In this document: piece by piece, positions 872 to 21,681 of the stretch
How positions within the stretch are numbered: the first letter of the stretch is position 1
Layout: every line of letters begins with the position of its first letter
DNA from: a virus
Strand: one strand, 5' to 3'
IMG/VR virus record: IMGVR_UViG_3300027833_000100
Location: 1 to 40,731 of that record
DNA length: 40,731 nucleotides
Made by a program: the position numbers and the translations under genes
The notes under the pieces: generated by a model
Told to the model about the DNA's origin: nothing
Databases searched by the model: none
Seen by the model: only the letters and a program-made list of their open reading frames with translations

Positions 872-890
872 TCATTATTCCGCCCTATTT
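872..890 (-). promoter_or_regulatory. Candidate phage promoter, copy 1 (AAATAGGGCGGAATAATGA)
   Basis: This is one of three exact copies of a 19-bp sequence in the window, all on the coding strand. It lies in the spacer before the ssDNA-binding protein gene, about 60 bases upstream of that start. The ATAGGG core resembles the initiation end of T7-type promoters, and the phage encodes a T7-type RNAP. If initiation is at the GGG, the leader would start near 885. The promoter role is inferred from position, repetition and the core sequence. Confidence 0.65.
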
Positions 891-901: not shown

Positions 902-1135
902 TTAATCGTCGTAAACACAAACACACCAGTGTCCGTAATCTTCGAGATATAGTTCTGCGTAGTAAGGACTCTCACTATCAGGGTCTGCCATAACACCTAT
1001 GGCCTCTGCTTCACCGTCCTCATCTAGAACAACTGAATGAACTTCAACAGGTAATATTTCGTCTTCAAAATCGATATATAATCTGTTACCTACTTTAAGC
1101 AAAGGCGTAGTCACTGTCAATAATTTCCTTAACAT
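902..1135 (-). CDS. Small acidic hypothetical protein (77 aa)
   Basis: A 77-residue protein whose first 41 bases overlap the 3' end of the RNA polymerase gene in another frame. The ATG at 1135 has AAAGGGA about 8 bases upstream, so translation probably starts inside the polymerase gene. After a short basic N-terminus it is very acidic and aromatic (ending in a YGHWCVCVYDD tail). The segment KVGNRLYIDFEDEILPVEV suggests a small beta-barrel. I do not recognise a family. Its place between RNAP and the ssDNA-binding protein suggests a role in early takeover or replication, but nothing shows this directly. Confidence 0.65.
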   Translation of the reverse strand: MLRKLLTVTTPLLKVGNRLYIDFEDEILPVEVHSVVLDEDGEAEAIGVMADPDSESPYYAELYLEDYGHWCVCVYDD

Positions 1136-3317
1136 CTAGATTCCCTTTCTGTGGGATTAATTGTAAAGCATTCATTTGTGAAAATATGTGTTCTAGAGGA
1201 TTCATATCATAAAGCTCTACAAACTTATTTCTTACATCAACAAATGCCTTGTCCATGTTACCTGCATGACAGCCGAACGAGTCGTGTACAACTGTAACAG
1301 GGTAGTCTGTGTCATGTACATACATGCTTAAATGAACTGCATCTACACTATGCACAATGTTAGGTGGTGCTGATTGTTTCTGCTTATCTTTGTCTAAAGT
1401 GGCCTCTGCCCACAAGGTAAAGTCTAATTCCATACGATTATTGTTATAGTTAAGTTTGACAGTCTTTGTTAAACCCTTACGGTATGCATGAACGAAGGGT
1501 AACCCTGTAACAATCTGACGAAAGTTTATAGGCTTATTTTTCCCATTTTCTTGTGCACCTAAGTTTTCAAACATACGCAACATAGCGGCAGGGCCTTTAA
1601 GCTCCGCATAACATGTTCTGTATATCATTTGACCCAAGTAGGCTGACCACGCCTTGTGCTTGTCTCTTAGATAGAGGTTTAAGCTACGTGTGTCATCGTG
1701 AACCATGTCTACCATACCGTATTGAACAGCACCGTAACCCAAAGTCATAACAGGTCGCTTAACTGTTTTACGCCATATCTTCCTGTCTTTAATATTGTAC
1801 CAGTATATTGGGGCATACTTTGTTAACAGGTGTCTATTTAAGTTGCCAAACTCTGAACGCCTTTTCATAGCCTCTGAGAACAAGTCTGATTTAGAATTAG
1901 AAGAATAGTTGTTAACAGATTTTTCTAACTTAACAAACTCATTGTATATAACAGTATACTTCTCAACCGCATCTGAGTCTTCTGATATAAGAGCATCATA
2001 GTCCTTAGTAACATTGTCTATTACTTTGTCGGCAATAAACATGTATACGTCACCGGGGAGTTCTTGTGGTACTAGGTTAACTAGCGGAGCTACTTCTTCG
2101 TCTTTAGACATAGCAACAAGGTGTTGAACGCCGTTATTAGAGCCGTCTACATATACAGGTAAATTTGATGGGAACTCTTCTACAGCAAGCCCACGGTCAT
2201 TTACCCAGTTATCTATCATGTAGATTTCATAACAACAAGCAAGAAAGCAGAAAGGTTTATCTGCACTCATCCAAGAGTTATTTCCCATAGGGTCTTCAAC
2301 ATAACTAATAAACTTGTTCCAGTTGTCAATCACAAACTGAGAACGTTCATCGAGTGTTACTTTGTCGTTACCGAACATGTTAGCCGTATGGACCATAAGC
2401 CAGTATAAACCCTCTTGACCCAACTTGACCGGTTCATCGAGTAAAAGCAAACCTTTCGCATTGTCACTGGATTGCTCATGGAGGAACGCAGTGTTAGGAT
2501 ATATGCGACCTCTGAAGTCCACATTATACAAGTGATAGAACGCATTTTCTTTGTTCCTTTCTGCTATTGCTTCGATAGCTTCTGCCTCTATTAATAATGA
2601 AGCTTTCTTTTTTGGGTCAACTTCTTTTTGGAATTTAAAAGGGGTTTGAATACTGTCTAAGTACTTACAAGATTTGAACACATTAAAGATGAAATGATTA
2701 ATTCTCCAACCAACATCTCCTAATTTGTTTAGTGTATCAACTAAGTATTCTGTACCGCCTTCTTTACAAGCCTTAATCGCATCTTCATGGGGGCTTTTCT
2801 TTATGAGAGGGAAGCCCGTATCGTGATTAAACTCACCGACAATCCAGTGTGCCGGTCTAATAGGAGAGGGAAACATTTCTACTTTTTCTATTTGTTCCAG
2901 TTCTTCTAAAACAGAGTTAAGCGACTTTACATCATCTACTTGTATATGATATGATGAATGTTTTTTTAACTTTCCATTTTTCTTCTTACTTCTTTTCTTT
3001 TTAATAGATAGTATGCCAGTGTCTAGATAAGATATGAATACAAACCAACCAAGGTGAATTGAGTTTACTTCATCTAATTTTAACTTTAATTTTCTATTAA
3101 CGCTGTTACCTATGCTTGATAACATGTTGGTTAGTTCTGATAGTATCTCTATCTTAGCCAAAACATGCCCATAGGTGTGTAATATTAATTCACGACAATC
3201 AGCGTCATGCAGATGCCATGCCTTGTTTCTTTTATCGGGTTTTTCCCCTTTAATGTCTAGTAAGAACTTTTGTCGTTCCTCCATGTTCTGAACGAGTAAG
3301 TCTAGTGTTTTTGTCAT
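1095..3317 (-). CDS. T7-type single-subunit DNA-directed RNA polymerase
   Basis: A 740-residue phage RNA polymerase that should transcribe phage genes from phage-specific promoters. All core motifs are visible: VDFRGRIY (about 266-273), motif A VDGSNNGVQH with catalytic Asp391, motif B RKTVKRPVMTLGYG with Arg516, Lys520 and Tyr528, PPNIVHSVDAVH (about 651-662), and motif C VVHDSFG with Asp679. It ends in DSDYAFA, like the T7 C-terminal foot. T7 RNAP is 883 residues; the shortfall is mostly N-terminal (DFRGR comes about 155 residues earlier), so the promoter-melting and lysozyme-contact region is reduced. The likely specificity loop lies near 600-625. The start at 3317 has GAGGAA upstream. It is downstream of a cluster of tiny genes and two coding genes upstream of the ssDNA-binding protein. 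Confidence 0.97.
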   Translation of the reverse strand: MTKTLDLLVQNMEERQKFLLDIKGEKPDKRNKAWHLHDADCRELILHTYGHVLAKIEILSELTNMLSSIGNSVNRKLKLKLDEVNSIHLGWFVFISYLDTGILSIKKKRSKKKNGKLKKHSSYHIQVDDVKSLNSVLEELEQIEKVEMFPSPIRPAHWIVGEFNHDTGFPLIKKSPHEDAIKACKEGGTEYLVDTLNKLGDVGWRINHFIFNVFKSCKYLDSIQTPFKFQKEVDPKKKASLLIEAEAIEAIAERNKENAFYHLYNVDFRGRIYPNTAFLHEQSSDNAKGLLLLDEPVKLGQEGLYWLMVHTANMFGNDKVTLDERSQFVIDNWNKFISYVEDPMGNNSWMSADKPFCFLACCYEIYMIDNWVNDRGLAVEEFPSNLPVYVDGSNNGVQHLVAMSKDEEVAPLVNLVPQELPGDVYMFIADKVIDNVTKDYDALISEDSDAVEKYTVIYNEFVKLEKSVNNYSSNSKSDLFSEAMKRRSEFGNLNRHLLTKYAPIYWYNIKDRKIWRKTVKRPVMTLGYGAVQYGMVDMVHDDTRSLNLYLRDKHKAWSAYLGQMIYRTCYAELKGPAAMLRMFENLGAQENGKNKPINFRQIVTGLPFVHAYRKGLTKTVKLNYNNNRMELDFTLWAEATLDKDKQKQSAPPNIVHSVDAVHLSMYVHDTDYPVTVVHDSFGCHAGNMDKAFVDVRNKFVELYDMNPLEHIFSQMNALQLIPQKGNLDVKEIIDSDYAFA

Positions 3318-3966: not shown

Positions 3967-3996
3967 TCTTTATATAGAGGGCGTAAAATCCCCAGT
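3963..3996 (-). promoter_or_regulatory. Promoter-like element A (GC hairpin then CTATATAAAGAAACC)
   Basis: The minus strand reads CCCTCTATATAAAGAAACC at 3963-3981, identical over 19 bases to 5994-6012. A weak GGG...CCC hairpin lies immediately upstream. It sits in the 48-base gap after the SleB-like gene and feeds the 51-aa, 59-aa, 20-aa and RNAP genes. There is no good -35 box at the right distance from TATATA, so a promoter for a phage-encoded polymerase is the more likely reading. This is inferred from position and repetition. Confidence 0.45.
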
Positions 3997-4383
3997 TTAT
4001 TTGTAAAAAATGTGAGTACCGACTACTGCTACTTCGTTGTAACCGTTAATCCAATAAGGACTAACGTAGTCAGCGTGGTACATAGTTGCACCGGTAGAGG
4101 GGACGTCTGCTGTTCCTGTGATAACGTCCCAAGCTAAGTCTTGTATAGACTCCCAAACCTGACGGTCTAAGTAGCTTAATCTATCTGGATTGTCCGACTT
4201 ACCGTCATGTGTCCAAGAAAATTGTTTTCGTTGCCATACAACATCACAAACATTGTCAGGGTAGCGGTTAGACTCAACACGGTTAAGTGTTACTTCTGCT
4301 ACCATTAATTGCCCTAGTGTAGACTCGTTACGAGCCTCATAGAACATATTCATTGCTAGGCATGTTGCCGCTGTTAGTATCAT
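3997..4383 (-). CDS. SleB/CwlJ-type cell wall hydrolase
   Basis: A 128-residue protein of the Hydrolase_2 (SleB/CwlJ) type, which cuts peptidoglycan. Visible features are NMFYEARNE with the expected catalytic Glu16, GQLMVAEVTLNRVESNRYPDNV, QFSWTHDG, and a C-terminal ATMYHADYVSPYW...GTHIFY block. I place the start at 4383 (MILTAATCLAM) because AAGGAT precedes it and it overlaps the stop of the gene before; an upstream in-frame ATG at 4398 is possible. The domain begins almost at the first residue, so there is no room for a cleavable signal peptide and export would need a holin. It lies away from the M15/holin pair at 21-22 kb, so the phage has two wall-degrading enzymes. Confidence 0.85.
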   Translation of the reverse strand: MILTAATCLAMNMFYEARNESTLGQLMVAEVTLNRVESNRYPDNVCDVVWQRKQFSWTHDGKSDNPDRLSYLDRQVWESIQDLAWDVITGTADVPSTGATMYHADYVSPYWINGYNEVAVVGTHIFYK

Positions 4384-5993: not shown

Positions 5994-6024
5994 GGTTTCT
6001 TTATATAGAGGGGCAAAAAACCCC
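5994..6024 (-). promoter_or_regulatory. Promoter-like element B (GGGG/CCCC hairpin then CTATATAAAGAAACC)
   Basis: Second copy of the 19-base element at 3963-3981. A 4-bp GGGG/CCCC hairpin with a 7-base loop (6010-6024) lies immediately upstream on the minus strand. It sits between the tape-measure terminator and the first small gene, where a new transcript would have to begin. No matching -35 box is seen. The use of hairpins by N4 virion RNAP makes this a candidate site for the MuF-RNAP. Confidence 0.5.
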
Positions 6025-6047
6025 ACTTTTTTAGTCGGTGTTTTGGT

Positions 6048-6075
6048 AAAAAAGGCCACCCCCGAAGGGATGACC
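6048..6075 (-). terminator. Rho-independent terminator after the tape measure gene
   Basis: The stem GGTCATCCC/GGGGTGGCC with a TTCG loop is identical to the terminator at 229-250 and is followed by TTTTTTACC. It lies 8 bases past the tape-measure stop and closes the late tail transcript. Confidence 0.88.
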
Positions 6076-6082: not shown

Positions 6083-9000
6083 TTATCTTTTAAAATTGTT
6101 TTCTTTGTTCTGCGCATTAACACCACCAGCAATTTGAGGCATCATCTTAACAATCTCAATTCGAGTTTGTCGTGATACATCGCCTTGTACGTTGATGTTG
6201 AAAGACTGTTGTGAAGCGCCACCAGAAGTGTTGTCCATGTTTCTTAACTGATTCTTAGACAATACAACTTCGCCCGGCATTAACATTGCTGGGACAGAGT
6301 CTTTTCCTGCCTGTGAGAAACTAGTAGAAGGAACAGTACCGCCTTGAGACATTAGCTTCGGACCACCAAATAGTGAGCTACCAAAGTTAAGTGCCATACC
6401 GAGCCAGTCTGTACCGCCTCCGCCTCCAGCTTTTCCACCTATGCCCCCAATACCTTTGAAAAGGTCTGTTAGCATTGGTGTTACATTCTTGAAAGCACTT
6501 TCTGTAAAGCTACTTGCAAAGGAGTCTATTACTGAAGATGTAAAGTTATCTAGTAAACCGCCTAATACGTCTTTCAAATCTCCACCATGTAACAACTCTG
6601 ATAGGCCATTCTTAAATGCGTTTTGGAAGTTCTCTGCGTAACCTTGAGCCGCTTTTGTAGCACCCTCATCGTTACCTTCAAGTGCTTCACCAACGTTATC
6701 TTTACCGCCCTCTTCTAACAAACTAACCTGAGTTTGGTTTAAGTTGTTAAGTAGTGTAAGCTGTGCAATAATGTCCGCTGAGTCTTGAGTACGATTCTCT
6801 TCTTGTGCCATCATCAGTTCTAGGGCTAGTCTATTACTTTGACCTGTTACCCCAAAGCCGGTAAATGCGGCAGTTCCTATTGGACCACCTTTATTTCTAA
6901 ACGCCGGAACAATACCTTTGTTAATAGAACTCATAAACCCGCTACCGAACTTTTGTACAGCAGACTGCTTCATAACATACTCACCATTAGATAACATCGC
7001 TGGGATGTCGTCTGATGTACCTGTACCCGCCCCATTAACTGGACCACCTGTAGAAAATCCCGGAGGTGTTGCGTTACCAAAGCCTTGTTTAGATTGGACT
7101 TCTAACTGTAGTCCACGTTTTTCTATTACTTTTTCAAGCTTTTCTATTGCATACTGTAAATCACTTTTACCAGTAAGGCTAAATAAAGATTTCAAAGTAG
7201 GTACAAGAGGGGTTTCTTCTAAAGAAGTAATAGAAGCCGCTAACTCTCTTAAAGTCGCTTCAGACGCAGAATCTAAATCAATAATTCCTCCATCAGAAAG
7301 AGTACTAATTAAATTACCTTGTTGTTTAAACTCGGCTATCTGTCTATCTGCTTGTTCTGTTCTGTCTTCACCGTTATTAGCGGCTCTTCCAAAGAAGTTA
7401 AAAGCGCCTTTAGTTGCATTTCTAACTGACTCGCTAACAATTCTACCTAATGCTATAACTAGACCCGCCGCTAAACCGACTAATAATCCTTTTTGCATAG
7501 CAGTACCAAGAGTAAGTCCAAGAGACTTTACTTTAGTTAGTAGCGACTGGACAACAGCCAGCTTAATAAATGCCGCACCTAGTTTGGTTGCCAATGTGGT
7601 TACAAACTTTGAACCAAATATGTATCCTGCAGTCTTAGCACCTATTGCTACAAATGCTTTTCTTGCTGTAGCACTAAATACAAAAGCACCCGCCATTATA
7701 GTAAGTGCAGTTCCTAGCTTAGTTAATGCTTCATTTTCAAATTCTGGACCATATAAACCTTCAAGGAATCCTTCGCTTATTGACCTAGCAAAAGTAGCAA
7801 TACCACTTGCTATACTGCTTATAAGGTCTCCATCACCACTAGCAAAGAAATCACCAAGTAACTTACCGAAACCACGAGCAGTAGACTTTGCTGACTCTTG
7901 GAATTCTTCGTTATCTTGTAGGCTCACAACAGAGGAAATTAATGCTACCCCAATTGCTTTTCTAAATAGCGCTCCAGCTAAACCTTTTCTGAAACCAACA
8001 AACAAAGCTGTTGCAAACAATGCACCCGCTACGTCTCCTTGTTCCCCCAAATAAGCTTTAAAGTCCGTAAGCTTTGTGGAGAAGTCTTCTCTTAAAGTAG
8101 AAGTAACACCTTTAGCACCAACAACAAGGGTTGTATTGGATAGTAGGTCAACAAACGTGTTAAACGTTTTAGTCATCCCGTCTATGCCTTTGTTGAAATT
8201 TTCAGATACCTTGGTTGTAGAAGGAAGTACGTCTTTTTCTTTACCGGTTGCTTTAGTTAAGCTTGCGTTAAAGTTGTCGTAAGCAGTAGTCATGCCAGTT
8301 AGCATGTTGCTCCAAAGAGTCTCTACTTCTAAACTAACAGTGGGTTTAATTCCATTTTTCTCAATATCAGAAGATAGTGTAGTCCACTTAGAGGACATAG
8401 AGGTAGTTGCTTTTTCAAACTTATCAACAATAGTATCTAAGTTTACACCAACTTTATCAGCTTCTATTTTAAGAGCATTTCCAAAACCAACTTCTTTAAC
8501 AGAAGTAATAGTAGACAACCATAAGTCATAAATCTCAAAGTTTAAATCTGAGAATAACTGTTGTAACTTACCTGACCAAGTTCTTATTTCTGTCAAGGGG
8601 TTGTCTAAAAATTTCTTTAAACTACTACCAACAGCAATAGTTTGCCCGTCCTCCATATGAGAAGGGTCAAATATTCCTGTCCAATAAGAGTCGCCTACAA
8701 CTGCTTTCCACAAACCTTTGAACAAGTCCGCTACCGCTGTAGTAAATGTTTTAATAGTTGCTTTAGCTGTATCCATGCTAGGTAACATCTCAGCTAGTAA
8801 GTCTATTTTTTTAGCACTAAATTTAATTGCTATACTAGTCTTGTCTCCTAGAGTTTTCTTAGCAGAGTTAAATCCTTTTACGATACTGTCTGCCATGTCT
8901 TTACCACTGATATCACCAGTAAAAATTCCTGTGACAAACCCACCAATATCTCTAGCAAATCTTTGAACTTTTAGTTTAGCCAATAGTAGCTCACCACCGA

Positions 9001-9844
9001 CTAATACAGAAAATCCAATAATGTTTTCACCAAAAGATTTAACCGCAATAGTAGCAAGCCTAATACCGTCCGCAATACCTTCAGAGGTGCCTATAGCTTT
9101 GTCGAGGTTGGCAATAGCTCTAGTCCATTCGTTACCGAATACCGTAGCCAGACCGCTTACTGTAGCGTTAAGAGTGTTATACTCATCGTCTATTTCTTGA
9201 GCGCCTTCTAGTATAGCTTTGTAAACAGCTTCAGCGGTGATTTTACCCGCCATAGCCTCTTCACGTAGCTTACCAAAGGGTATTCCCATACCATCAGCAA
9301 TAGCTTTAGCCAATCTTGGCATCTGTTCTAACACTGAGTTTAATTCTTGTCCACGTAACTGACCAGAAGCTAAACCCTGACCTAACTGTACGATAGCGGC
9401 TTTAGCTGATTGAGCGCCGGAACCGGATATAACAGCGGCTTTTTGGACTGCTTCAGTTACCTTTAATAACTCACCTACAGGTTTATTAGCATCTTGTAGA
9501 GCTAAACCAAACCTATTAAATGTCTCAGCGGCGGCATCAACACTACCGCGTGACCTTGCGGCTATCTTGAACAACTCGTCCATAACCACTTTTGTCTTTT
9601 GTACGTCTCTAGTAACCAGATTAACTCTGTTACCAAAATCTGTCATTGAATCTGCGCTTCTTGTTATGCTCTTTGTTAAAGCACCACCAGTAAACGCCGC
9701 TGTTATGCCTACAGCAAGGTTTCGGAATGACTTAGAAACTGCTGTTGCTCGTTTGTCTAAACTAACAACTGATTTCTCTAGTTTTCCTATTTCTCTTGAG
9801 GCTTGAGCCGCATCAGCTCTTACCCGAATCTTTACACCACTCAT
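6083..9844 (-). CDS. Tail tape measure protein
   Basis: A 1253-residue tape measure protein that sets tail length and is ejected at infection. The N-terminal 260 residues carry the tape-measure domain (GALTKSITRSADSMTDFGNRVNLVTRD, GQLRGQELNSVLEQMPRLAKAI). The middle has coiled-coil and hydrophobic stretches (for example 630-660, 740-790 and 795-820). The C-terminal third has two GG-x-V...IPAML-x-GE-(Y/V)-V blocks, near 960-1000 and 1190-1230, typical of long-tailed phage tape measures. The start at 9844 has AAGGAGAC upstream. By the usual rule of about 0.15 nm per residue, a tail near 190 nm is expected. A terminator precedes the gene and another follows it. Confidence 0.95.
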   Translation of the reverse strand: MSGVKIRVRADAAQASREIGKLEKSVVSLDKRATAVSKSFRNLAVGITAAFTGGALTKSITRSADSMTDFGNRVNLVTRDVQKTKVVMDELFKIAARSRGSVDAAAETFNRFGLALQDANKPVGELLKVTEAVQKAAVISGSGAQSAKAAIVQLGQGLASGQLRGQELNSVLEQMPRLAKAIADGMGIPFGKLREEAMAGKITAEAVYKAILEGAQEIDDEYNTLNATVSGLATVFGNEWTRAIANLDKAIGTSEGIADGIRLATIAVKSFGENIIGFSVLVGGELLLAKLKVQRFARDIGGFVTGIFTGDISGKDMADSIVKGFNSAKKTLGDKTSIAIKFSAKKIDLLAEMLPSMDTAKATIKTFTTAVADLFKGLWKAVVGDSYWTGIFDPSHMEDGQTIAVGSSLKKFLDNPLTEIRTWSGKLQQLFSDLNFEIYDLWLSTITSVKEVGFGNALKIEADKVGVNLDTIVDKFEKATTSMSSKWTTLSSDIEKNGIKPTVSLEVETLWSNMLTGMTTAYDNFNASLTKATGKEKDVLPSTTKVSENFNKGIDGMTKTFNTFVDLLSNTTLVVGAKGVTSTLREDFSTKLTDFKAYLGEQGDVAGALFATALFVGFRKGLAGALFRKAIGVALISSVVSLQDNEEFQESAKSTARGFGKLLGDFFASGDGDLISSIASGIATFARSISEGFLEGLYGPEFENEALTKLGTALTIMAGAFVFSATARKAFVAIGAKTAGYIFGSKFVTTLATKLGAAFIKLAVVQSLLTKVKSLGLTLGTAMQKGLLVGLAAGLVIALGRIVSESVRNATKGAFNFFGRAANNGEDRTEQADRQIAEFKQQGNLISTLSDGGIIDLDSASEATLRELAASITSLEETPLVPTLKSLFSLTGKSDLQYAIEKLEKVIEKRGLQLEVQSKQGFGNATPPGFSTGGPVNGAGTGTSDDIPAMLSNGEYVMKQSAVQKFGSGFMSSINKGIVPAFRNKGGPIGTAAFTGFGVTGQSNRLALELMMAQEENRTQDSADIIAQLTLLNNLNQTQVSLLEEGGKDNVGEALEGNDEGATKAAQGYAENFQNAFKNGLSELLHGGDLKDVLGGLLDNFTSSVIDSFASSFTESAFKNVTPMLTDLFKGIGGIGGKAGGGGGTDWLGMALNFGSSLFGGPKLMSQGGTVPSTSFSQAGKDSVPAMLMPGEVVLSKNQLRNMDNTSGGASQQSFNINVQGDVSRQTRIEIVKMMPQIAGGVNAQNKENNFKR

Positions 9845-12142: not shown

Positions 12143-12480
12143 TATAATTTCTCCTTTGTCAACTGCAATGTTATTACAAAACCGTCGTCTTGGAAGTCTG
12201 TTATACTGTATACTGAAGTACCTATTGTTATAGTATCATAACCGTCAACAACAACGTTAGACTTCATCAAGGCTTTCGATTGAAAGGCTCCGTCAGAAGA
12301 TTTATCGGTTGTTTCTAGAAATACTTTAACTGTTTTACTAGTTGTAGTAGCTACTGCTTGCCCTGTGGCAAAGTCATAACTACTTGCGTTTTTATTGGAT
12401 AAAGTTCCAGAGACCGCTAAGTCTCCGATAGCCGCAAAAGCCTTATCTACTGCCGCATTAACTTTAGCCTTAAGTGACAT
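12142..12480 (-). CDS. Head-closure/neck protein
   Basis: A 112-residue protein with an N-terminal helix (LKAKVNAAVDKAFAAIGDL) and a beta-barrel-like body (VKVFLETTDKSS..., DGYDTITIGTSVYSITDFQDDGFVITLQL). This layout is usual for stopper or gpFII-like neck proteins that close the filled capsid. Position between the Ad1-type adaptor and the tail terminator supports it. The ATG overlaps the previous stop region and GGAGG precedes it. Confidence 0.7.
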   Translation of the reverse strand: MSLKAKVNAAVDKAFAAIGDLAVSGTLSNKNASSYDFATGQAVATTTSKTVKVFLETTDKSSDGAFQSKALMKSNVVVDGYDTITIGTSVYSITDFQDDGFVITLQLTKEKL

Positions 12481-12986: not shown

Positions 12987-13003
12987 TAGTTCCTCCTATC
13001 TGA

Positions 13004-14122
13004 TTAAGCGTGGAATATTGGTAAGATACCTAAGTTCAAGCTATCCATTTTACGTGTGTATGATGCACCAGCACCTAGTACGCTGTTAGAAGCAAACGCA
13101 TTAGTTGCGCCAGCCCAGTCGTAACCCATTGGGTGGTTGATGTAACCCCAACGATACCATACGTTTGTTGAACCACCACCTAAGTAAGAAGCCGCCGCAC
13201 GGTCTACTTCTACTGGAGTTGGCATGTTGATTGCTGTTGCCGCAACTGAACCCGGCTTGATGATGTATGAACACTTAGTTGATTGTGCATTCAAGTCGCC
13301 TGAAGCCGCACCTGAAATCATTTGGTTTGCACGAGTCATAACTAGACGGAATTTTCCACCAAATACTGTTGAGAACTCAAGGTTTCCATCAGTTACACGG
13401 TCTTCGTCTACTAGGTTAGCCGCACGCATTTCAGCCATTACTTCTGGTGAAGTTACCATGTACATGAAATCTGGTTCGTAGTCTTTGAACGCCGCTCCAA
13501 CAGAACGGAATAAACGCTCACCACGAGCCGCACCCATTGCTGATGAATCAAATAATTTACGTGCATCTGAAGAACCAGTTGCCGCCGCCCCGTGTAGACC
13601 TAGTGCGTTTACGTCACAGAAGAATCCTGTATTAGCCGCATCTGCGTCTGTATCGAAATCGATGATTCCGCCGTTACCTGAACCGCCTAAGTCACCTAAA
13701 GTAACTTCTGAAAGTGTTACACCTTTAAGAACTGACAATAATGCGTCATGCTCGTCTTGTGCACGTACTTCAGCAAAGTCACGAGCGATTTTCGCTAGAC
13801 CGTCTTGCTTTGATACTACTTCTTGCATGTTAACTTGCTCTGCACCGAATGTACGAACAGTTTTCACGAAGTTAGCAACGTCTGTTGCGATGTCTGTGTA
13901 TGTACCATCTGTAGCTGATGACAATGAAGCAACGTTTACAGTTGATGATAGTGGTTTGTACCATCTGAACTGACCTACGAAAGACTCACCTGAAGCGTCA
14001 ATTCTTTGGTCTGCGGCAACAATACCTGTGCCGTTTAATTTCTTAGCGCTTGTATAAGCTTCGTCTGAGTAAGCAGAGATTGCTAAAGCAATGTTCTGAA
14101 AATCTGTGTTTGTAATAGCCAT
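13004..14122 (-). CDS. Major capsid protein of block 1
   Basis: A 372-residue major capsid protein, probably of HK97 fold. It starts MAITNTDFQNIALAISAYSDEAYTSAKK, has a central FVKTVRTFGAEQVNMQEVVSKQDGLAKIARDFAEVRAQDEHDALL spine-like helix, a MYMVTSPEVMAEMRAANLVD segment and a Gly/Ser-rich C-terminal half ending NLGILPIFHA. It resembles the Mcp13-like group. It follows a scaffold gene and precedes the connector genes, the standard head-module order. It is unrelated in sequence to the second capsid protein at 38924-39997. AAGGAAAAATAAAATG gives a clear start. Confidence 0.88.
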   Translation of the reverse strand: MAITNTDFQNIALAISAYSDEAYTSAKKLNGTGIVAADQRIDASGESFVGQFRWYKPLSSTVNVASLSSATDGTYTDIATDVANFVKTVRTFGAEQVNMQEVVSKQDGLAKIARDFAEVRAQDEHDALLSVLKGVTLSEVTLGDLGGSGNGGIIDFDTDADAANTGFFCDVNALGLHGAAATGSSDARKLFDSSAMGAARGERLFRSVGAAFKDYEPDFMYMVTSPEVMAEMRAANLVDEDRVTDGNLEFSTVFGGKFRLVMTRANQMISGAASGDLNAQSTKCSYIIKPGSVAATAINMPTPVEVDRAAASYLGGGSTNVWYRWGYINHPMGYDWAGATNAFASNSVLGAGASYTRKMDSLNLGILPIFHA

Positions 14123-14161
14123 TTTATTTTTCCTTATGTGCTAATTATAGCGTTTTTTGTT

Positions 14162-14836
14162 TTAGATATTAAAATTACCTAGTTTACCTTTTTGGGCAAG
14201 AGCTAGTATTTCTTGAGTTGACATTTCTGATATTGATTTAGAAACATCAGTCGAAGGCGCACCAGCTGGATTGCCTGTACCTGCACCTGTGTTAGATTTA
14301 ACACGGAACAAGAATGAGTTATCTTCGGACTTAGAATAAGCTTCTACGTAGTCACGAATGTTTGAACCTGTTGAATGGACCCATTGTCCTTCTTCATTTT
14401 GAACCAATTGGTCAACAATCTCTCTGCGAGCCATGTCGCGAGATTTATCGTTGCGGAATTCCATGCCGGATAGGGCATCATTTAAGACACCGTCACGCTT
14501 GAGTTGAGTTGTCTCTTTTGCATAGACATCTAACTTAGCACGAGCCTCGGCAAGTTCCATTTCAAGAGCTTCTTGTAATTTACCTTCTTCTTTCATTCGA
14601 GCAATAGTGTCTTCTTTTTGTTTAGACTCCATCTCGACTTTAAGCTTTAAGGCTTCATCACGCTCACTAGCCATACGGTCCATATTAGCTTTCATCTTGG
14701 CTAATCGTTCTTCAACAATTGCTTCGACATCATCTTTAGGAGCTTCTGGTGTAGCTGGTTCTTCATTAATTACTTCTTCAACAACTGGTTCTTCCACTTG
14801 TGTTACATTTTCTTCGATTTGATTATCTTCGCTCAT
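14162..14836 (-). CDS. Capsid scaffolding protein
   Basis: A 224-residue, highly charged, mostly helical protein: acidic N-terminus (SEDNQIEENVTQVEEPVVEEV), a long coiled coil (about 40-120), then MSTQEILALAQKGKLGNFNI at the end. Composition and position just before the major capsid gene identify it as the scaffold that guides procapsid assembly. The start at 14836 has GAAAGGAAATAAA upstream; the extension to 14851 uses a TTG overlapping that ribosome site. Confidence 0.85.
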   Translation of the reverse strand: MSEDNQIEENVTQVEEPVVEEVINEEPATPEAPKDDVEAIVEERLAKMKANMDRMASERDEALKLKVEMESKQKEDTIARMKEEGKLQEALEMELAEARAKLDVYAKETTQLKRDGVLNDALSGMEFRNDKSRDMARREIVDQLVQNEEGQWVHSTGSNIRDYVEAYSKSEDNSFLFRVKSNTGAGTGNPAGAPSTDVSKSISEMSTQEILALAQKGKLGNFNI

Positions 14837-14879
14837 TTTATTTCCTTTCAAGCACAGCTTGGGTTGATATATTAATTAT

Positions 14880-14892
14880 GTGTCACAGACAC
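14880..14892 (-). promoter_or_regulatory. Perfect 5-bp hairpin with 3-base loop upstream of the scaffold gene
   Basis: The minus strand reads GTGTC-TGT-GACAC in an AT-rich 91-base spacer between the MuF-RNAP gene and the scaffold gene. N4 virion RNAP recognises 5-7 bp hairpins with 3-base loops and a central purine; this one has that shape, with a central G. It could be a virion RNAP promoter or only local mRNA structure. No other perfect example was seen. Confidence 0.25.
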
Positions 14893-14927
14893 GTTTATTT
14901 ATTTAGTCATATAGCTATTACAAATAT

Positions 14928-17900
14928 CTATGGACCGATACCATACCAATCGTTTCCTTTTCGTATGGGTTCGAGTAATTCTTTCGGAGTAATTTTATTA
15001 TCAGGGTCTATTAATCCGTCTTCTTTAGCTCTTCTTAAGTATTTATTATATGTCGCCCTTGACATACCTGACTTTCGCATCTCTGCAAGAGTCTGTTTAA
15101 TCGTCCCTTGTTTTAACGAATCTGCATAGATTTGTCTTAAGGCCGATTTAGCGGGAACCGCTTCACCAAGGTTCGAGAAGAAAGCATCGTGGATTGTTCC
15201 AGTGTCTACTTTATTCTTCCTCCCCCAAAGGTGGAATTGTCTAACAATCGAAGCGTCATTGCTATGATTGCCATTAACACCAAGACCTATTGAAGCATCC
15301 TGTATACTGGATTGCGACATTAGTTTACCGTCTTTTGATGGTGATTCATAAATATTGAAGACTTTCTTTCCGGTAACAGGGTCTTTAAAGTCTATTCTTG
15401 TCTGTTCTTTTACTCGATATCTTTGCATCATTTTCTTACCGTCAAATGTCACCCACGGGATGTCAACTGACCCTGACTCTGCAACATAGTCTTTTGCAAC
15501 GTCTTTCCAGAATTTGATAAATTTACCAGTAACAGGAACCTCTTGTTCGAGTTTAGCACTCATAATCTTAGATATCTTATCAAACAAACGAGTACCGATT
15601 AGGTCACCTGTTTCGTCTTTAAGTTTAGCTAAGAACATGTGCATGTCCTCGGAATTCTTTACACCGTCTCTGAACTCTGCACGAGCAGTTTCATATAACG
15701 AGTCAGTGATGGAAGTACCTTCTTTAGAAGATAATACCACTTTCTTTTTGATTTCTCGTAATTCATCGATTCGAGACCAATTCTTTCTATCCATTTCAAA
15801 GCTTATCTTAGCGTCTATAGCCTTCTTAAACTTGTCAACCTCTTTAGTAGATATAGCTATCTTGCCTTTCTTAGCAAGAACTTTAGCAAACTGATTAGCA
15901 ACGTTAGCAGACTTAGTAGCATCCCCGGCACCGTAAAAGGCAACCATGTTTTGATTCTTTGCCGCTTTCATTAAGTCAGTCCAATCTAAATCCATATCGG
16001 CTAATTCAGGTATAGCTAAAAACTCAGCATCATCAACAGTGCGTTTCGCAATTTCATCATAGAGTCTTTGTTTCTTTGATGTTTGTAATACATTAGATAA
16101 CTCGGCGGAGGCCCTGTCACCTGTAGATAAAGATATAATCTGCGCTCCACTAGAGGAAGCATCGTTTTCTATCATCATCTTTGTTTTGTATTGTGCTAGT
16201 CGTTGTCGTTGTGCGTTAGTCCATAGAGACTTATTAGTAACCATTTCACCATTCATATGCCTGTGTATACGAGTATACTCAAGAGCTAGTCTAGCTAACT
16301 TACCAACTTCCTTATCTTCAGTAACCGCTACAAGAGGGTTAGATAAGAATTCTTTGATACGCCTATCTGGTTGTGTTGGAGACATCATAGCCTCACCAAT
16401 TTGAAGTAAGTTCTTTTCTTGGTCTTTAAAAGCTTTTATTCTACCTTGATTAGTTAATGTGTTTAAAGGATTACCTATAAGAGCGCCAATTTGAACTTGT
16501 AGTTCTTCTACCGCATCCGCATTGATAGCTATTTCTCTAGCAGTGTTTAAGAAGGGCCTAACAGCCTCTCCTTTAGTAGGTGTAAGCAAACCACGATGAT
16601 AAACACGTCCACGAAAGTCTATTGAAGCATCAACAGAGAAAGACTGTCCTTTTTGTCTATAATACTTAGCTGTAGCCATAACGCCACGACCATCATTACC
16701 ACGACCAATAAAGAGTTTCTTCATTTCGTTAAGTTCATCCCACTTCTTAGCTTCCCCTCTTTTATCTTTAAAGTAGACGAGCCGTTCTGTAAAGTCGAAA
16801 AATTCAGGGTCAACCTCATATTTAACTGAGTTAGCATGATTAAGCATTTTAGCCATGTCGCGGTCAATTTGTGTTGGGTCATAGTCTCTATAAACCTTCT
16901 CAGATACAACCGGCATCTTAGTCTTTCTACCACGAGCATCATAGAACTCTTTAGAGCCAGCTTTAGCATAAACTTTGTTCTTGTTATCGTGATAACCGAA
17001 TCGTCTAGCTGTACGAGCCTTCTCTGAAGCAATCTGTAGCTGTCTCATTGGACCATTAACAATAGTGAGCTGTCTAGTAACATTAACACCACGCATAGCG
17101 GTATTACTAGAAGGCCTACCTGTCATTAGGTCAATAGGAGAGGACGTACCAATGTCTCTGATTGTAGTTGTTCTTATCATTCCTTGTTGTTCAAAGGACT
17201 TGATTATCTTACTACCATCTCTGTGGAAATCTTTAAGACTTTTAGAACGAAATAAATTTAAATCACCCAGTTCATCATCAAACAACTGTCCGATTTTAAT
17301 AGCTAACATGTCATAGTCAGCACCATCCGCAGTAGCAATAGCTTCCATAGCTTTGGCAGTAGCATTAATAGATTTGTCTTTTAAGGCAACTTTAGCTTTA
17401 GCCCTACGTCTTGCGTATAAGAATTCTAAATCAAGTAGCTCTCGAGTATTACCTCTTAACTTCGCTAGTTGGCTTGTAAACCAAGAATCACTTGGAGGCT
17501 TCTTGGCAAATAAAGCTTGTAGCTTTCTCTTTTGCTTAACGCCCGGAATGTTATCAATAAGTTTGTTCTTAAGGTTAGTTATAGAAGGATAACGATTAAT
17601 AATAGGTTGTGTATAAGCCGCTATAGGAGCCTTACCACTAAAGTAAGCTTTCTTAGCAAGCCTTGCACCCTCTCTGCCACGCCATAATTCAATGTATCTG
17701 TTGTCGGCAATCTGAGAATCAATTAATTCACCAATAGTATACTTTTTATTAAAGATGAATACGGCAGGGTCATTATCGAGTGCTTGGTTTAAACCACCAA
17801 ATAACTTACCTCTATCGGCAGACCTATTAAACATAAGTGTACCTAAGTCTTGTACGGAGTTAAGTGTAAACTTTCTGAATACAGAAGTAGGTTTACCCCA

Positions 17901-19367
17901 AGCTTCACCAGAAGTATTGTATCTAGTAAATGTTTGTCGCATAACATCTGTAATAACAGAACGTTGATTGATTGATATGTCTTTGCCCAAGTCTTCAACG
18001 AAGTTTGTGATATAGTTCTTTTGAAAGTCTGTAAGACTGTCACTAGCGGTTACTCTTGCTAAACGCTCAGTAAGTATTTCAGGCTCTTGAATCTGCAGAT
18101 GTCTACCGGCACCACTTGTATAATTAGCACCTTCTGCGTTCATTACAGCACCGTCACGGTTATTCTTAAAAGCTCTACGACTGCCTTGTTTCTGAGATAA
18201 AGAGTTACCCTTGAAATCTGTTAAGGCGAGTGCTTGAGCATTTTCTGCCGCATCGTTTTTAAAGTGAGCTTTTAAAGCCGCAGTATTAGATTTGGATTTC
18301 ATTAATTCATCTGGAGTATTAAAGTCCAAACTTACAACACTATCATTTTTGGCTGTAGGTCTTTTAACTGTTTTATTACCTCGTCTCATTAAACCTTGTA
18401 AAGACAAAGCCTTGCCTAAAGGTGAAACAAATTCAGAAGCTTTAAGCCTACCTGATTGGAATAGTTTTGCTTGACGCTCACCGCCGAGTTGTTTAACTTG
18501 TACATCAGTGCCTTGTCGCCTTAACCAAGTCGTGTAATCTTTAATTTTACTAACCTTGCCATCAAGCTCTGCCGTTTTAATTTTCTTAAGGTTTCTAGAT
18601 TTAATATTCTTTGATTTAATCGCTTCAAGCTCGTCTTTAGCTTTAATAACTGGCACCATTGTACTACGGCAGTTCCAGTGTAAAGGAGGTTGATAACGCC
18701 TGTCATTGATATCATATAGTTGCCCATTGTGGTAAGAACAAATCGCACTTGTACGACCATCTAATATAGCAGTAAACATATAACCTTTGATTACTTCTGC
18801 ATTAGCTTCCATTACTTGATTCAACGCATTGGTTTGTGTTGTAGTAATAGATGTCCTTGTTAGTGTTTTAGCCTGATGTTCTGTTATTTTAGTTGTCTTC
18901 ATAACATCTTTAATAATTTCATTTTGGGTTAAACCCTTGGCTAGTCCACCTTTAACTTTTTGTTGTATACGAACCAATTCACCAGCGGCAATATTGCTAG
19001 TGTTCTTCTTAAGAGTTCTAACACCCTTAATTTGTGGTCCTGTTATTTCTGCTAGAAGCGCCTTAGTCTTGGGCTTCTGTATTCGATAGAACTTTTTTAG
19101 TTCAGCATCGAGGTTGTTCTTGTGAAAGACCCTTTGTGAGTTGGAGAACTCTTTTAGGCTTTTATCATTATGACCTAATAGTTCTTTTCCGAAGCGAGTT
19201 ACTTCAGGTTTCACATCAGCACGGATATCCCCTTTTAAAAGGTCTCTCAAATTCCGTTTGTGTTTCTTTATTATGACACGGTTCTGTTTCTGAACACCGT
19301 TTTCATATAGTCGGATGTCACCATTGTGGTCAACTATCCTATCAAAAATCTTTTCGTTAATCGACAT
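14928..19367 (-). CDS. MuF/SPP1 gp7-type minor head protein fused to a single-subunit RNA polymerase
   Basis: A 1479-residue protein. Residues about 85-245 are a MuF-like domain: TRTSITTTQTNALNQVMEAN, FTAILDGRTSAICSYHNGQ, then PPLHWNCRSTMVPV. Residues about 245-830 are Lys/Arg-rich and unrecognised. Residues about 835-1440 carry the T7/N4-type polymerase motifs: NHANSVKYEV, DFRGRVYHRG (917-926), motif A NDASSSGAQ (Asp1069), motif B KNQNMVAFYG (Lys1137, Tyr1145), WVTFDG...Y...TR (1305-1324), HSNDASIVR (His1368) and motif C TIHDAFF (Asp1394). All three catalytic positions are present; the T7 Arg627 position is Met. MuF proteins sit inside the capsid at the portal, so this should be a virion RNAP ejected with the DNA. 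The start at 19367 has GGAG 8 bases upstream; a GTG at 19412 would begin inside a hairpin. Portal lies upstream, scaffold downstream. Confidence 0.93.
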   Translation of the reverse strand: MSINEKIFDRIVDHNGDIRLYENGVQKQNRVIIKKHKRNLRDLLKGDIRADVKPEVTRFGKELLGHNDKSLKEFSNSQRVFHKNNLDAELKKFYRIQKPKTKALLAEITGPQIKGVRTLKKNTSNIAAGELVRIQQKVKGGLAKGLTQNEIIKDVMKTTKITEHQAKTLTRTSITTTQTNALNQVMEANAEVIKGYMFTAILDGRTSAICSYHNGQLYDINDRRYQPPLHWNCRSTMVPVIKAKDELEAIKSKNIKSRNLKKIKTAELDGKVSKIKDYTTWLRRQGTDVQVKQLGGERQAKLFQSGRLKASEFVSPLGKALSLQGLMRRGNKTVKRPTAKNDSVVSLDFNTPDELMKSKSNTAALKAHFKNDAAENAQALALTDFKGNSLSQKQGSRRAFKNNRDGAVMNAEGANYTSGAGRHLQIQEPEILTERLARVTASDSLTDFQKNYITNFVEDLGKDISINQRSVITDVMRQTFTRYNTSGEAWGKPTSVFRKFTLNSVQDLGTLMFNRSADRGKLFGGLNQALDNDPAVFIFNKKYTIGELIDSQIADNRYIELWRGREGARLAKKAYFSGKAPIAAYTQPIINRYPSITNLKNKLIDNIPGVKQKRKLQALFAKKPPSDSWFTSQLAKLRGNTRELLDLEFLYARRRAKAKVALKDKSINATAKAMEAIATADGADYDMLAIKIGQLFDDELGDLNLFRSKSLKDFHRDGSKIIKSFEQQGMIRTTTIRDIGTSSPIDLMTGRPSSNTAMRGVNVTRQLTIVNGPMRQLQIASEKARTARRFGYHDNKNKVYAKAGSKEFYDARGRKTKMPVVSEKVYRDYDPTQIDRDMAKMLNHANSVKYEVDPEFFDFTERLVYFKDKRGEAKKWDELNEMKKLFIGRGNDGRGVMATAKYYRQKGQSFSVDASIDFRGRVYHRGLLTPTKGEAVRPFLNTAREIAINADAVEELQVQIGALIGNPLNTLTNQGRIKAFKDQEKNLLQIGEAMMSPTQPDRRIKEFLSNPLVAVTEDKEVGKLARLALEYTRIHRHMNGEMVTNKSLWTNAQRQRLAQYKTKMMIENDASSSGAQIISLSTGDRASAELSNVLQTSKKQRLYDEIAKRTVDDAEFLAIPELADMDLDWTDLMKAAKNQNMVAFYGAGDATKSANVANQFAKVLAKKGKIAISTKEVDKFKKAIDAKISFEMDRKNWSRIDELREIKKKVVLSSKEGTSITDSLYETARAEFRDGVKNSEDMHMFLAKLKDETGDLIGTRLFDKISKIMSAKLEQEVPVTGKFIKFWKDVAKDYVAESGSVDIPWVTFDGKKMMQRYRVKEQTRIDFKDPVTGKKVFNIYESPSKDGKLMSQSSIQDASIGLGVNGNHSNDASIVRQFHLWGRKNKVDTGTIHDAFFSNLGEAVPAKSALRQIYADSLKQGTIKQTLAEMRKSGMSRATYNKYLRRAKEDGLIDPDNKITPKELLEPIRKGNDWYGIGP

Positions 19368-19406
19368 AGTATCTTCTCCATTACTATAATTCGTGGATGT
19401 GTAGTC

Positions 19407-19426
19407 GGCCACCCCTAAGGGTGACC
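19407..19426 (-). other. Hairpin between portal and MuF-RNAP genes
   Basis: The minus strand forms an 8-bp stem GGTCACCC/GGGTGGCC with a TTAG loop. The arms closely match those of the two terminators at 229-250 and 6054-6075, but there is no T tract. It may reduce readthrough from portal into the MuF-RNAP gene or act as an mRNA processing or stability element. Confidence 0.5.
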
Positions 19427-19433
19427 TAAGAAT

Positions 19434-21005
19434 TTATTCTTCGTCTAGATTGATGTCTTCGTCACTAGGCGTATTTGTCAAAGGGTCTGTCTGTATAGCT
19501 TGAATAGCTTCTTCATCGTCATAATCAGCAGGAAGAAAGTCATTATACTTCGCAATGTTGATAAATGTATCACGAGAAATAATACCACTTTGGTACCATT
19601 CTGATACTAGACGCATAGAGCCTTCTCCACCTACAGTAGCGGCAAAGTCGGCAGACAGTTGGAATTCAATATCATTACCTGTATAGGCAGTGTCGTATTT
19701 CCAGTTAATCATAAAGGCTAGTATTTCTTGCATAGTGCCAGATATCTTAGCGTTCATTGTTCCTAATTGAGCAGTCTGAGAAGCATTACGAATCTCTAAA
19801 GCAACACCAGAAGCGGCTTGTTCGGGGGATAACATACGTATTCCCATTTTGGCCATTTCAGTAACAGTAGCTTCAATAGCTCTGTCCATGTCTGATAATG
19901 CGCCAGTAGGTGTTTCTAATACAGTAATGCTTTCATCTTTACGAACACGTAACCAAGTACCTAAACCTGCCCCTACTAGTTCTTCAAACTCTTCGTCAGT
20001 CATGTCAGATTGTACAACAGGGGTATAAGTAGCCGCACCCATTAAAAGGTGGTTTCTACGAGATACTTTATTATACAAAGCAACTTCACGGTCTATCAAA
20101 GGCATTAACACTGGTTCAACGGGTTCTAACTGTCCATTTAAAGGAAAGGCGGGTATTCTAGTCAAACGTTCACCAAACTTCATTGGATAAACTGTATCAT
20201 ATAATTGGAATCCACCATCAGCAGAGTCTTCGTACTCTTGTTGTATAACACCATTTAGTGATTCTACTTCATGTGAGCCGTGAGCCTTTTTGTAGTAGTC
20301 TAGTACTAAGTAACCTTGCTCATCTAAGTAATGGTCACAAACAGTATCAATATAGTTGGGGTGCCAAGGATTATCTTGAGTATACTCTTCTGTTATGTAT
20401 CGGGTAGTCCAACGTGAGAGAGACTTAACACGAGTAACTGGATGTGTCTTTACCTGTACGTTAATAACGTTTTCAGCCTTAATCAAAACAGGATAAGGAG
20501 AAATCATCATTCTTTCTTCAGGTGTCATCATTTCTAATTCTATATCAGAAATAGTAGGTCTATCAATATAAACCCAAGCACGAGAAGTTTGTAATTCCTC
20601 CCAAATAGCGGCATCTAAAAAGTTAAATAAAGAAGCACCGTCCAGTGTAATATCTTTTGTAACCCAATCATACGCTTCATCAGGCAGTTCCTCTGGAAGA
20701 GTTAAGGAAGAAGGTTTTCGTAATAAAGCACTAATAAGAACACGAGCATACTGGGTTGTTAGGCCCGGCAGTTCGCCTTCTGATTTGTAAAAATCGTATT
20801 GTGCTTGTGACATACTGGGGCTAAAAGGCAACAATAAGTTTGAGTAATCGTGTTCAATATATTCATCATGGGCTTTAGCGTGAGCCTCACCTTGAAGTAC
20901 CGCACGAGCCTTTTTCCATAGTGGTTTAAGTGACAAATAAGAAGCACTTGGAGTCTCAACACCACGTTTCTGCGTATTAGCCGCAGTCTTAATAAGAGCC
21001 ATCAT
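19434..21005 (-). CDS. Portal protein (DUF4055 type)
   Basis: A 523-residue portal protein, the dodecameric ring through which DNA is packaged and ejected. The sequence fits the DUF4055 portal family: PSASYLSLKPLWKKARAVLQGE near the start, YARVLISALLRKPSSL, a wing and stem rich in charged strands, and NHLLMGAATYTPVVQSDMTDEE with a downstream EQAASGVALEIRNASQTAQLG helix, then an acidic tail (PSDEDINLDEE). Two adjacent ATGs follow AAGGAG; the second (21002) has the better spacing. It is the first head gene after the tandem promoter-like elements, and the MuF partner is next. No terminase gene is seen in the window. Confidence 0.88.
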   Translation of the reverse strand: MMALIKTAANTQKRGVETPSASYLSLKPLWKKARAVLQGEAHAKAHDEYIEHDYSNLLLPFSPSMSQAQYDFYKSEGELPGLTTQYARVLISALLRKPSSLTLPEELPDEAYDWVTKDITLDGASLFNFLDAAIWEELQTSRAWVYIDRPTISDIELEMMTPEERMMISPYPVLIKAENVINVQVKTHPVTRVKSLSRWTTRYITEEYTQDNPWHPNYIDTVCDHYLDEQGYLVLDYYKKAHGSHEVESLNGVIQQEYEDSADGGFQLYDTVYPMKFGERLTRIPAFPLNGQLEPVEPVLMPLIDREVALYNKVSRRNHLLMGAATYTPVVQSDMTDEEFEELVGAGLGTWLRVRKDESITVLETPTGALSDMDRAIEATVTEMAKMGIRMLSPEQAASGVALEIRNASQTAQLGTMNAKISGTMQEILAFMINWKYDTAYTGNDIEFQLSADFAATVGGEGSMRLVSEWYQSGIISRDTFINIAKYNDFLPADYDDEEAIQAIQTDPLTNTPSDEDINLDEE

Positions 21006-21044
21006 AGTTCTCCTTTGTTGTTATTGTTTAATTAATTATAACTA

Positions 21045-21071
21045 AAAACACCTAATCAAGAGGGGTGTCTT
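21045..21071 (-). other. Leader hairpin before the portal gene
   Basis: The minus strand pairs AAGACACC with GGTGTTTT (one G-U) across an 11-base loop, about 40 bases before the portal ATG and downstream of promoter copy 2. The stem runs into a short T stretch, so weak attenuation is possible. Confidence 0.4.
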
Positions 21072-21131
21072 AAGGTATACTTAAAGATTAACCTTGTAGT
21101 AGTATTAGTATTAGTTAGGGGCGGCTGTGGG

Positions 21132-21150
21132 TCATTATTCCGCCCTATTT
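21132..21150 (-). promoter_or_regulatory. Candidate phage promoter, copy 2 (AAATAGGGCGGAATAATGA)
   Basis: Exact copy of the 19-bp element at 872-890. It lies about 130 bases upstream of the portal start, at the head of the long head-and-tail gene run. It follows a GAGAGA/TCTCTC hairpin, so the order on the transcribed strand is promoter copy 3, hairpin, promoter copy 2, leader, portal. Confidence 0.68.
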
Positions 21151-21169
21151 TCTACCATATAATTAAGTA

Positions 21170-21197
21170 AGAGAGAAAGGTTTTAACCCCCCTCTCT
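21170..21197 (-). terminator. Weak terminator-like hairpin between the tandem promoters
   Basis: AGAGAG pairs with CTCTCT on the minus strand, with an inner GG/CC pair and an A/T-rich loop; TACTTAATTATAT follows. It may end transcripts coming from the lysis genes just before the portal promoter. The T tract is poor. Confidence 0.4.
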
Positions 21198-21238
21198 TTG
21201 ATAGGACTGTCAGACACTTGAGAGCCTGTCCTTTATTA

Positions 21239-21257
21239 TCATTATTCCGCCCTATTT
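21239..21257 (-). promoter_or_regulatory. Candidate phage promoter, copy 3 (AAATAGGGCGGAATAATGA)
   Basis: Third exact copy of the 19-bp element, 107 bases upstream of copy 2 and 17 bases past the M15 peptidase stop. The flanking bases differ from the other copies, so the conserved unit really is about 19 bp. Tandem copies would raise expression of the head genes. Confidence 0.66.
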
Positions 21258-21273
21258 ATTATTTTCCAACAAG

Positions 21274-21681
21274 TTAACCTTGCCAACGTGCTTTGCCATC
21301 TCTGACATCAACATGTGTAAATGTTTTATAGCGTCCTAGGCCACCTTTGTGGAATACGTTTAAATAGTTATATACCTTACTTGCGGGAACACCCTTCACA
21401 ACTATGTCCGCCGCCATCCCCTTTACATGGTAAGAGCCTTTAGCACCACCTACAGCGGCGTTATGTTTTGGGCTTCTGTAACCACTGTTGATTGTTATAG
21501 GGGCATCAAAGTGTGTTCTAATAGATTCTAGCAATTCTAATAGCCTTGGATCTATTCCGTTTTCAGGCATGGTTTGGCTTCCCTTACAAGAAAATTCAGA
21601 TACTTTAAAGTTTTCAGAAAGATATCCTCTTTTTAGAGTAGGTTTAAATATATTAGATAATTTCATTTTACTAAATTTCAT
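21274..21681 (-). CDS. M15-family peptidase endolysin
   Basis: A 135-residue zinc peptidase of the M15 (D-Ala-D-Ala carboxypeptidase/endolysin) type: LSENFKVSEFSCKG, ITINSGYRSPKHNAAVGG, then the metal motif YHVKGMAADI (His85, Asp92) and FTHVDVR (His123). It cuts peptide bridges of peptidoglycan at lysis. The ATG at 21681 overlaps the holin stop (ATGA). It has no signal peptide, so it should depend on the holin just upstream. It belongs to the late transcript that precedes the portal. Confidence 0.9.
   Translation of the reverse strand: MKFSKMKLSNIFKPTLKRGYLSENFKVSEFSCKGSQTMPENGIDPRLLELLESIRTHFDAPITINSGYRSPKHNAAVGGAKGSYHVKGMAADIVVKGVPASKVYNYLNVFHKGGLGRYKTFTHVDVRDGKARWQG

Follow-up and report, generated by a model that had tools for sequence, protein, structure and literature searches.

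The window analysed here, a 40,731-nucleotide stretch of viral DNA (IMG/VR record IMGVR_UViG_3300027833_000100, positions 1 to 40,731), encodes on its minus strand a protein that joins a MuF-type phage head-morphogenesis module to a complete T7-type single-subunit RNA polymerase (RNAP). We refer to this protein as MuF-RNAP. A sequence-only reading of the same DNA had proposed MuF followed by RNAP within one uninterrupted frame with an ATG start at 19367, and both points were borne out. Positions 14928-19412 (-) form a single open frame, which has 1494 codons from a GTG and encodes 1479 amino acids from the ATG, and the independent contig L006 is 99.9% identical to the window over 6931-23257, so the fusion is no assembly error. 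Judged by sequence comparison, the ATG at 19367 (MSINEK...) is a better start than the GTG at 19412, because nearly all relatives begin at the equivalent of MSINEK; residue numbers count from this ATG. The gene and its parts are:

14928..19367 (-): MuF-RNAP fusion gene, 1479 amino acids from the ATG, 1494 with the upstream GTG at 19412
18390..19367 (-): MuF / SPP1 gp7-like module, residues 1-326, common to ordinary phage head-morphogenesis proteins
17739..18389 (-): linker region, residues 327-543, mostly helical in AlphaFold2 models, with low-confidence stretches at 333-343, 402-414 and 524-530
14931..17738 (-): complete T7-type single-subunit RNAP, residues 544-1479, T7-like N-terminal domain included, as assigned from PF00940, phrog_414, Foldseek and VIA-align

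The MuF/SPP1 gp7-like character of the N-terminus, recognised by eye in the earlier reading, is confirmed by profile matches to PF04233 (Phage_Mu_F; positions 18657-18968, E-value 3.5e-14, 53.9 bits against a cut-off of 29.6) and to phrog_241 'head morphogenesis' (E-value 1.1e-55). All 66 aligned relatives match PF04233. Among the 60 phage records listed by tblastn, 56 match the MuF part only, their matches ending near residue 326-341, and four hold the fusion. The point at which these matches stop marks where an ordinary MuF protein ends. A search of the PDB with the fold of residues 1-560 returned no phage head protein, only generic helical bundles with Z up to 9.6, which are not interpretable.

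The C-terminal part matches PF00940 (E-value 1.3e-7, 31.2 bits against a cut-off of 22) and the phrog_414 RNA polymerase family (E-value 5.2e-24). A nine-sequence profile searched against the PDB retrieved T7 RNAP chains only, with an E-value of 4.5e-5 and the motifs in register. We modelled residues 290-1479 with AlphaFold2 using 66 sequences (predicted local distance difference test score, pLDDT, 79; predicted template modelling score, pTM, 0.73). T7 RNAP was the top Foldseek match of this model (E-value 1.8e-18), and VIA-align superposed the two with Z 27.6 (612 residues, root-mean-square deviation 8.8) or Z 27.1 (502 residues, root-mean-square deviation 3.4). The corresponding Z values were 24.9 for yeast mitochondrial RNAP, 15.2 for the N4 mini-vRNAP and 13.7 for N4 RNAPII. 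Model residues ~255-1189, which are protein residues ~544-1478, match T7 RNAP residues ~34-883; because the model superposes over this length, the whole T7 architecture is present from about residue 544. The proposal of a complete polymerase thus holds, with nearly the whole of T7 RNAP covered, and its extent has to be redrawn: the polymerase is larger than the residues 835-1440 first assigned to it, and the unassigned stretch between it and the MuF module shrinks from ~590 residues to ~220. Comparison by hhalign gave probabilities of 97.7% to the second RNAPs of the same phages, 96.3% to T7 RNAP and 0.1% to the N4 virion RNAP (vRNAP), the last against one N4 sequence only. On the model, the fused polymerase is T7-type, closer to T7 and mitochondrial RNAP than to the N4 virion enzyme, so that of the T7/N4 affiliation first suggested the T7 half is favoured; N4 mini-vRNAP shares the superfamily fold at a lower Z. 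The region has both a significant RNAP match and an RNAP fold, two of the points on which the earlier reading had said beforehand that the assignment would stand or fall.

Conservation was evaluated in an alignment of 66 diverse full-length sequences with 28-97% identity. The polymerase motifs lie in the order originally described, and residues D917, R919, R921, D1069, S1073, Q1076, K1137, M1141, Y1145, G1146, H1368, D1371, H1393 and D1394 are invariant in 66/66. Given this invariance across such diverse sequences, the catalytic motifs are not a chance occurrence. The placement of D1069 and D1394 was judged by superposition of the model on T7 RNAP. The motifs are:

16605..16619 (-): DFRGR motif, D917-R921 (T7 DWRGR); D, R and R kept in 66/66
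16140..16163 (-): motif A, D1069-ASSSGAQ (T7 D537); 66/66, aligned to T7
15930..15959 (-): motif B, K1137...Y1145-G1146 (T7 K631/Y639); 66/66, with a group I intron site in relative L027 and in EBPR siphovirus 1 (ESV1)
15255..15266 (-): HSND motif, H1368 (T7 H784); H and D in 66/66, with a group I intron site in relative L177
15186..15191 (-): motif C, H1393-D1394 (T7 H811-D812); 66/66, aligned to T7

The database search for further such fusions that had been recommended was productive: scans of IMG/VR showed that at least 546 stretches encode MuF-RNAP relatives, and the full-length relatives fetched have the same fusion, down to 28% identity. By a strict pattern, 105 fetched loci carry MuF and all RNAP motifs in one frame and 36 further full-length copies show minor departures from the pattern (a few contigs were fetched twice in these counts); the only interrupted copies are intron-bearing ones. 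The relatives form two clades that share about 30% identity: the marine clade A, to which the window belongs, and clade B, one member of which is a 74 kb contig placed in the bin of a Gammaproteobacterium. MuF-RNAP phages are widespread in marine and freshwater samples, and cultured members exist. The Ruegeria phages DSS3_VP1 and DSS3_PM1 (Naomviridae) encode proteins with 44% identity over 99% of MuF-RNAP, annotated 'minor head protein-like protein' or 'head morphogenesis'; the DSS3_VP1 gene is DSS3VP1_00028.

Group I introns account for the interruptions. In ESV1 (L002) the genes annotated as 'head protein' gp47, HNH endonuclease gp48 and gp49 together represent a pair of exons plus a group I intron, which lies at 11190-12039 and breaks the frame between KAQNMV and TFYG in motif B; its Rfam group I match scores 40.5 bits, under the gathering score of 50. 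A clear group I intron scoring 91.8 bits (11421-12284) occupies the same codon boundary in the marine relative L027, and that of L177 (56.3 bits, ~14234-14965) lies in the HSND motif.

The fusion gene lies beside the portal gene: portal is directly upstream, with scaffold and capsid downstream, and the order portal, MuF-RNAP, scaffold, capsid is found in the window, DSS3_PM1 and DSS3_VP1. The neighbouring genes are:

19434..21005 (-): portal protein, directly upstream of MuF-RNAP (phrog_145, E-value 1.1e-47)
14162..14851 (-): scaffolding protein, directly downstream of MuF-RNAP (phrog_206, E-value 4.1e-10)
13004..14122 (-): major capsid protein (phrog_247, E-value 1e-25)
6083..9844 (-): tail tape measure protein (PF20155, TMP_3, E-value 1.2e-54), a separate gene without an RNAP match
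1095..3317 (-): second, stand-alone T7-like RNAP, a putative non-virion enzyme (PF00940, E-value 6.1e-77; phrog_414, E-value 1.7e-120)

No tRNA gene was found in the window; a tRNA-Asn gene lies between portal and MuF-RNAP in DSS3_VP1 (L048, 21063-21138) and DSS3_PM1 (L001, 11822-11897).

Both polymerases are present in 16 of the 18 long records searched, and the two records without the second RNAP are both fragments, one a contig of 38.6 kb and the other the incomplete ESV1 sequence. In a tree the fused RNAPs form one clade with support 100/100, apart from the stand-alone RNAPs, and a long branch of 3.54 changes per column separates them from T7 and from the second RNAPs that these phages carry, in a tree with few outgroups. 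The fused and stand-alone sets show the same two-clade split, and this shared split suggests that the two enzymes have long been inherited together.

Two classes of promoter-like motif were found, whose functions are predictions from sequence. The early-class motif of clade A is bipartite, AAAAA(G/C)TGRG...C(A/C)TCTATAAY, with a fixed 13-base spacing. All clade A genomes looked at have 2-4 sense copies between the tape measure terminator and the second RNAP; there are two copies in the entire DSS3_VP1 genome, and two matches in three shuffles of all sequences. Its clade B counterpart, GCGG-AAA...GTATCTTATATGA, lies mostly in the same location, and the core of that motif gave 26 matches in 10 genomes, all sense, with none antisense and none in the control. 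The layout is common to clades A and B. Considered as a possible N4-like hairpin promoter, the early motif could by eye form a GGGG/CCCC stem in the window's clade and not in DSS3_VP1. A sigma-70 promoter scan did not pick out the clade A early motif, which has no recognisable -35 box. The second class, which we take to resemble the SP6 promoter, has the form ATAGG(G/T)(T/G)(A/G)CGTTAAAGA in DSS3_VP1, where 14 sense sites and no antisense sites occur. Nine of the 14 lie between annotated genes and three directly upstream of portal/MuF-RNAP, and no SP6-like site lies at 29.4-45.9 kb, the region containing the second RNAP gene. In the window these elements are:

6054..6075 (-): terminator-like hairpin after the tape measure gene, kept in several clade A relatives
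6002..6032 (-): first copy of the early-class promoter-like motif, AAAAAAGTGGGG...CCCCTCTATATAAAG
3971..4001 (-): second copy of the early-class motif, lying upstream of the stand-alone RNAP gene
21239..21255 (-): promoter-like motif of the SP6-like (middle/late) class, ATAGGGCGGAATAATGA, upstream of portal and MuF-RNAP
21132..21148 (-): SP6-like motif, second copy, upstream of portal
872..888 (-): SP6-like motif, third copy, downstream of the second RNAP gene

Some further observations concern these elements and the stand-alone polymerase. The hairpin at 6054-6075 has a near-identical terminator-like counterpart at about 224-250 of the window, both being GGTCATCCCTTCGGGGGTGGCC followed by a T run. 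In clade B, tandem CTGAACATGGCTCTAAACTGTTC-like copies stand directly before the second RNAP gene (L209, 10022-10130; L208, 9655-9735), and it is possible that they are operators or a further promoter class. The Pelagibacter phages Kolga and Aegir have a similar stand-alone RNAP, but their MuF protein lacks the RNAP part; the early motif was not found in Kolga, which is consistent but weak, Kolga being distant. In G015 (the record behind L180) the match to the stand-alone RNAP is itself divided between two frames, and in G010 (behind L131) and G012 (behind L139) it is gapped by at least 600 bases inside one long frame; the interruptions in G010 and G012 could be introns or inteins.

These data allow us to propose, with a probability of about 0.8, that MuF-RNAP is the virion RNA polymerase of a tailed, siphovirus-like phage, loaded through its MuF module, injected with the genome and starting early transcription. 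By analogy with its family, the MuF/gp7 module would bind the portal during procapsid assembly and so bring a few copies into the head. The C-terminal 935 residues, which have the fold and catalytic residues of a T7-type polymerase, would be active as such. At infection MuF-RNAP would accompany the DNA into the cell, perhaps passing the tail in a partly unfolded state, and transcribe the early region from the bipartite motif just after the tape measure gene. That region includes the second RNAP gene, whose product may in turn read the SP6-like class upstream of middle and late genes, portal and MuF-RNAP among them, so that late-made MuF-RNAP would be packaged for the next cycle. The virion role is supported because the fusion is kept across hundreds of contigs, because the same genomes carry a second stand-alone RNAP, following the logic of N4 and P23-45, and because that second RNAP has a conserved motif class upstream of it. 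Both motif classes are compatible with a cascade running from early motif to second RNAP to SP6-like motif. DSS3_VP1 DNA contains uracil (PMC12697855), and we speculate that bringing in its own polymerase might also help the phage to have promoters recognised in such DNA.

Several points weigh against this proposal. Virion presence, portal binding, ejection and enzymatic activity are steps that we infer. In its folded state a polymerase of ~105 kDa would probably not fit through the tail tube of a siphovirus, which makes it necessary to assume unfolding or processing, and cleavage of the linker in the procapsid is possible. The position of T7 R627 is not kept in clade A, which has M or A there, and is R in most of clade B. 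Finally, some early-motif copies contain TATAAT and could be read by host RNAP.

This last point bears on an unlikely alternative, in which the RNAP is injected but host RNAP transcribes the early genes from the TATAAT-containing motif, the injected enzyme mainly pulling DNA in or shielding the DNA ends. T7 RNAP is known to pull DNA into the cell during internalisation. End shielding likewise has a precedent, as 80alpha gp44 protects genome ends (PMC7290940). Several copies of the early motif do carry TATAAT, but others with TATAAC, TATGAC or TATATA are retained, the spacing of 13 bases is fixed, the -35 box and sigma-70 scan gave nothing, and clades A and B share the layout of the motif. The strict conservation of catalytic residues also argues for RNA synthesis, though pulling would need the same residues.

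Quite improbable is a polyprotein cleaved in the linker, with MuF going to the head and RNAP working in the cytosol late in infection. The ~220-residue linker with its low-confidence stretches would offer room for such a cut. Against this, no prohead protease was recognised among the genes beside portal and capsid in a non-exhaustive search; the second RNAP would make a late cytosolic enzyme superfluous; and the fusion is kept in both clades despite their divergence, with intron-split copies as the only splits. That the polymerase domain is an inactive, degenerate piece of structural cargo we regard as very improbable: the R627 position could be read in this way, but all key catalytic residues checked are invariant and homing group I introns are placed in active-site codons. 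An assembly or gene-calling artefact, which the possibly chimeric state of the window past ~29 kb might have suggested, is already refuted by the cultured, complete phages with the same fusion, by L006 and by more than 100 other loci.

MuF-RNAP shares features with several known systems. T7 RNAP and its relatives (T7, SP6 and mitochondrial RNAP) have the same whole fold, N-terminal domain and key catalytic residues, but T7 RNAP is made early from injected DNA and has no structural-protein fusion. The N4 virion RNAP (Schitoviridae gp50) follows the same logic, with a single-subunit RNAP expected in the virion and a second RNAP for later genes, and the N4 virion carries about four copies (PMC12633501). 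It has ~3500 residues, with N- and C-terminal domains of its own, and uses hairpin promoters (PMC12633501, PMC5512222), in contrast to the 1479 residues, MuF N-terminus, T7-type polymerase and long-tailed-phage gene order of MuF-RNAP. The RNAP match runs to the MuF-RNAP C-terminus, and no N4-type large C-terminal region follows it. Membership of the N4 vRNAP group is disfavoured, as fold, size and domain layout point to T7-type instead.

The Thermus phage P23-45 likewise has a virion RNAP on a structural protein (gp96), a separate non-virion RNAP and an AT-rich early motif (PMC10770324). Its RNAPs are of the two-barrel type, related to cellular RNAP, with the virion enzyme joined to the tail tape measure, whereas MuF-RNAP carries a T7-type enzyme on a head/portal-associated protein; the T7-type fold and the separate tape measure gene rule out a P23-45-type assignment. 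SPP1 gp7 binds the portal, which brings a small number of copies into the procapsid, and gp7-like proteins also occur fused to toxins, for which delivery has been proposed (PMC6316719). Such MuF polymorphic toxins resemble MuF-RNAP in combining a MuF module with a C-terminal enzymatic cargo expected to travel with the DNA (PMC5512222, PMC6316719); known fusion partners include RNases, RelA/SpoT and similar domains. The cargo of MuF-RNAP is instead a whole RNA polymerase for the virus's own transcription. A MuF toxin with an immunity gene was rejected as an assignment, the C-terminus being an RNAP and the next gene encoding scaffolding protein. The gene of the 80alpha ejection protein gp44, which is present in ~2 copies and binds DNA ends, has the same position (PMC7290940); gp44 and gp7 share with MuF-RNAP the position beside portal, are of low copy number and have no polymerase.

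N4-like phages, jumbo phages and P23-45 are known to carry virion RNA polymerases, and MuF cargo fusions are known as well; their combination with a T7-type enzyme appears to be undescribed. A search of full-text literature found no description of a MuF-RNAP fusion, the original Naomviridae description lying outside its coverage. We consider it likely that these phages use an undescribed packaging route, in which a portal-tethered T7-type RNAP in a large long-tailed phage family would use a dedicated bipartite promoter to transcribe early genes independently of host RNAP, a second T7-type RNAP being among the early products. If this is true, the virion-RNAP phages gain a large environmental family whose loading device differs, and the use of MuF to carry cargo, known for toxins, extends to the virus's own transcription machinery. 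It would give a functional reading to a gene labelled only 'minor head protein-like' in cultured phages and a new candidate promoter class to a T7-type RNAP, and it would leave the passage of a 165 kDa protein through a long narrow tail to be explained.

The distal part of the window was left out of the argument on MuF-RNAP. Homology to relatives stops at ~29.1 kb, after PhoH, and past ~29 kb the window may be chimeric, or the phage recombinant. The region 29200-40731 holds tail-fibre genes and a second capsid-type module, absent from all relatives searched, which includes:

38924-39997: P22-like coat
38144-38854: SU10-like adaptor

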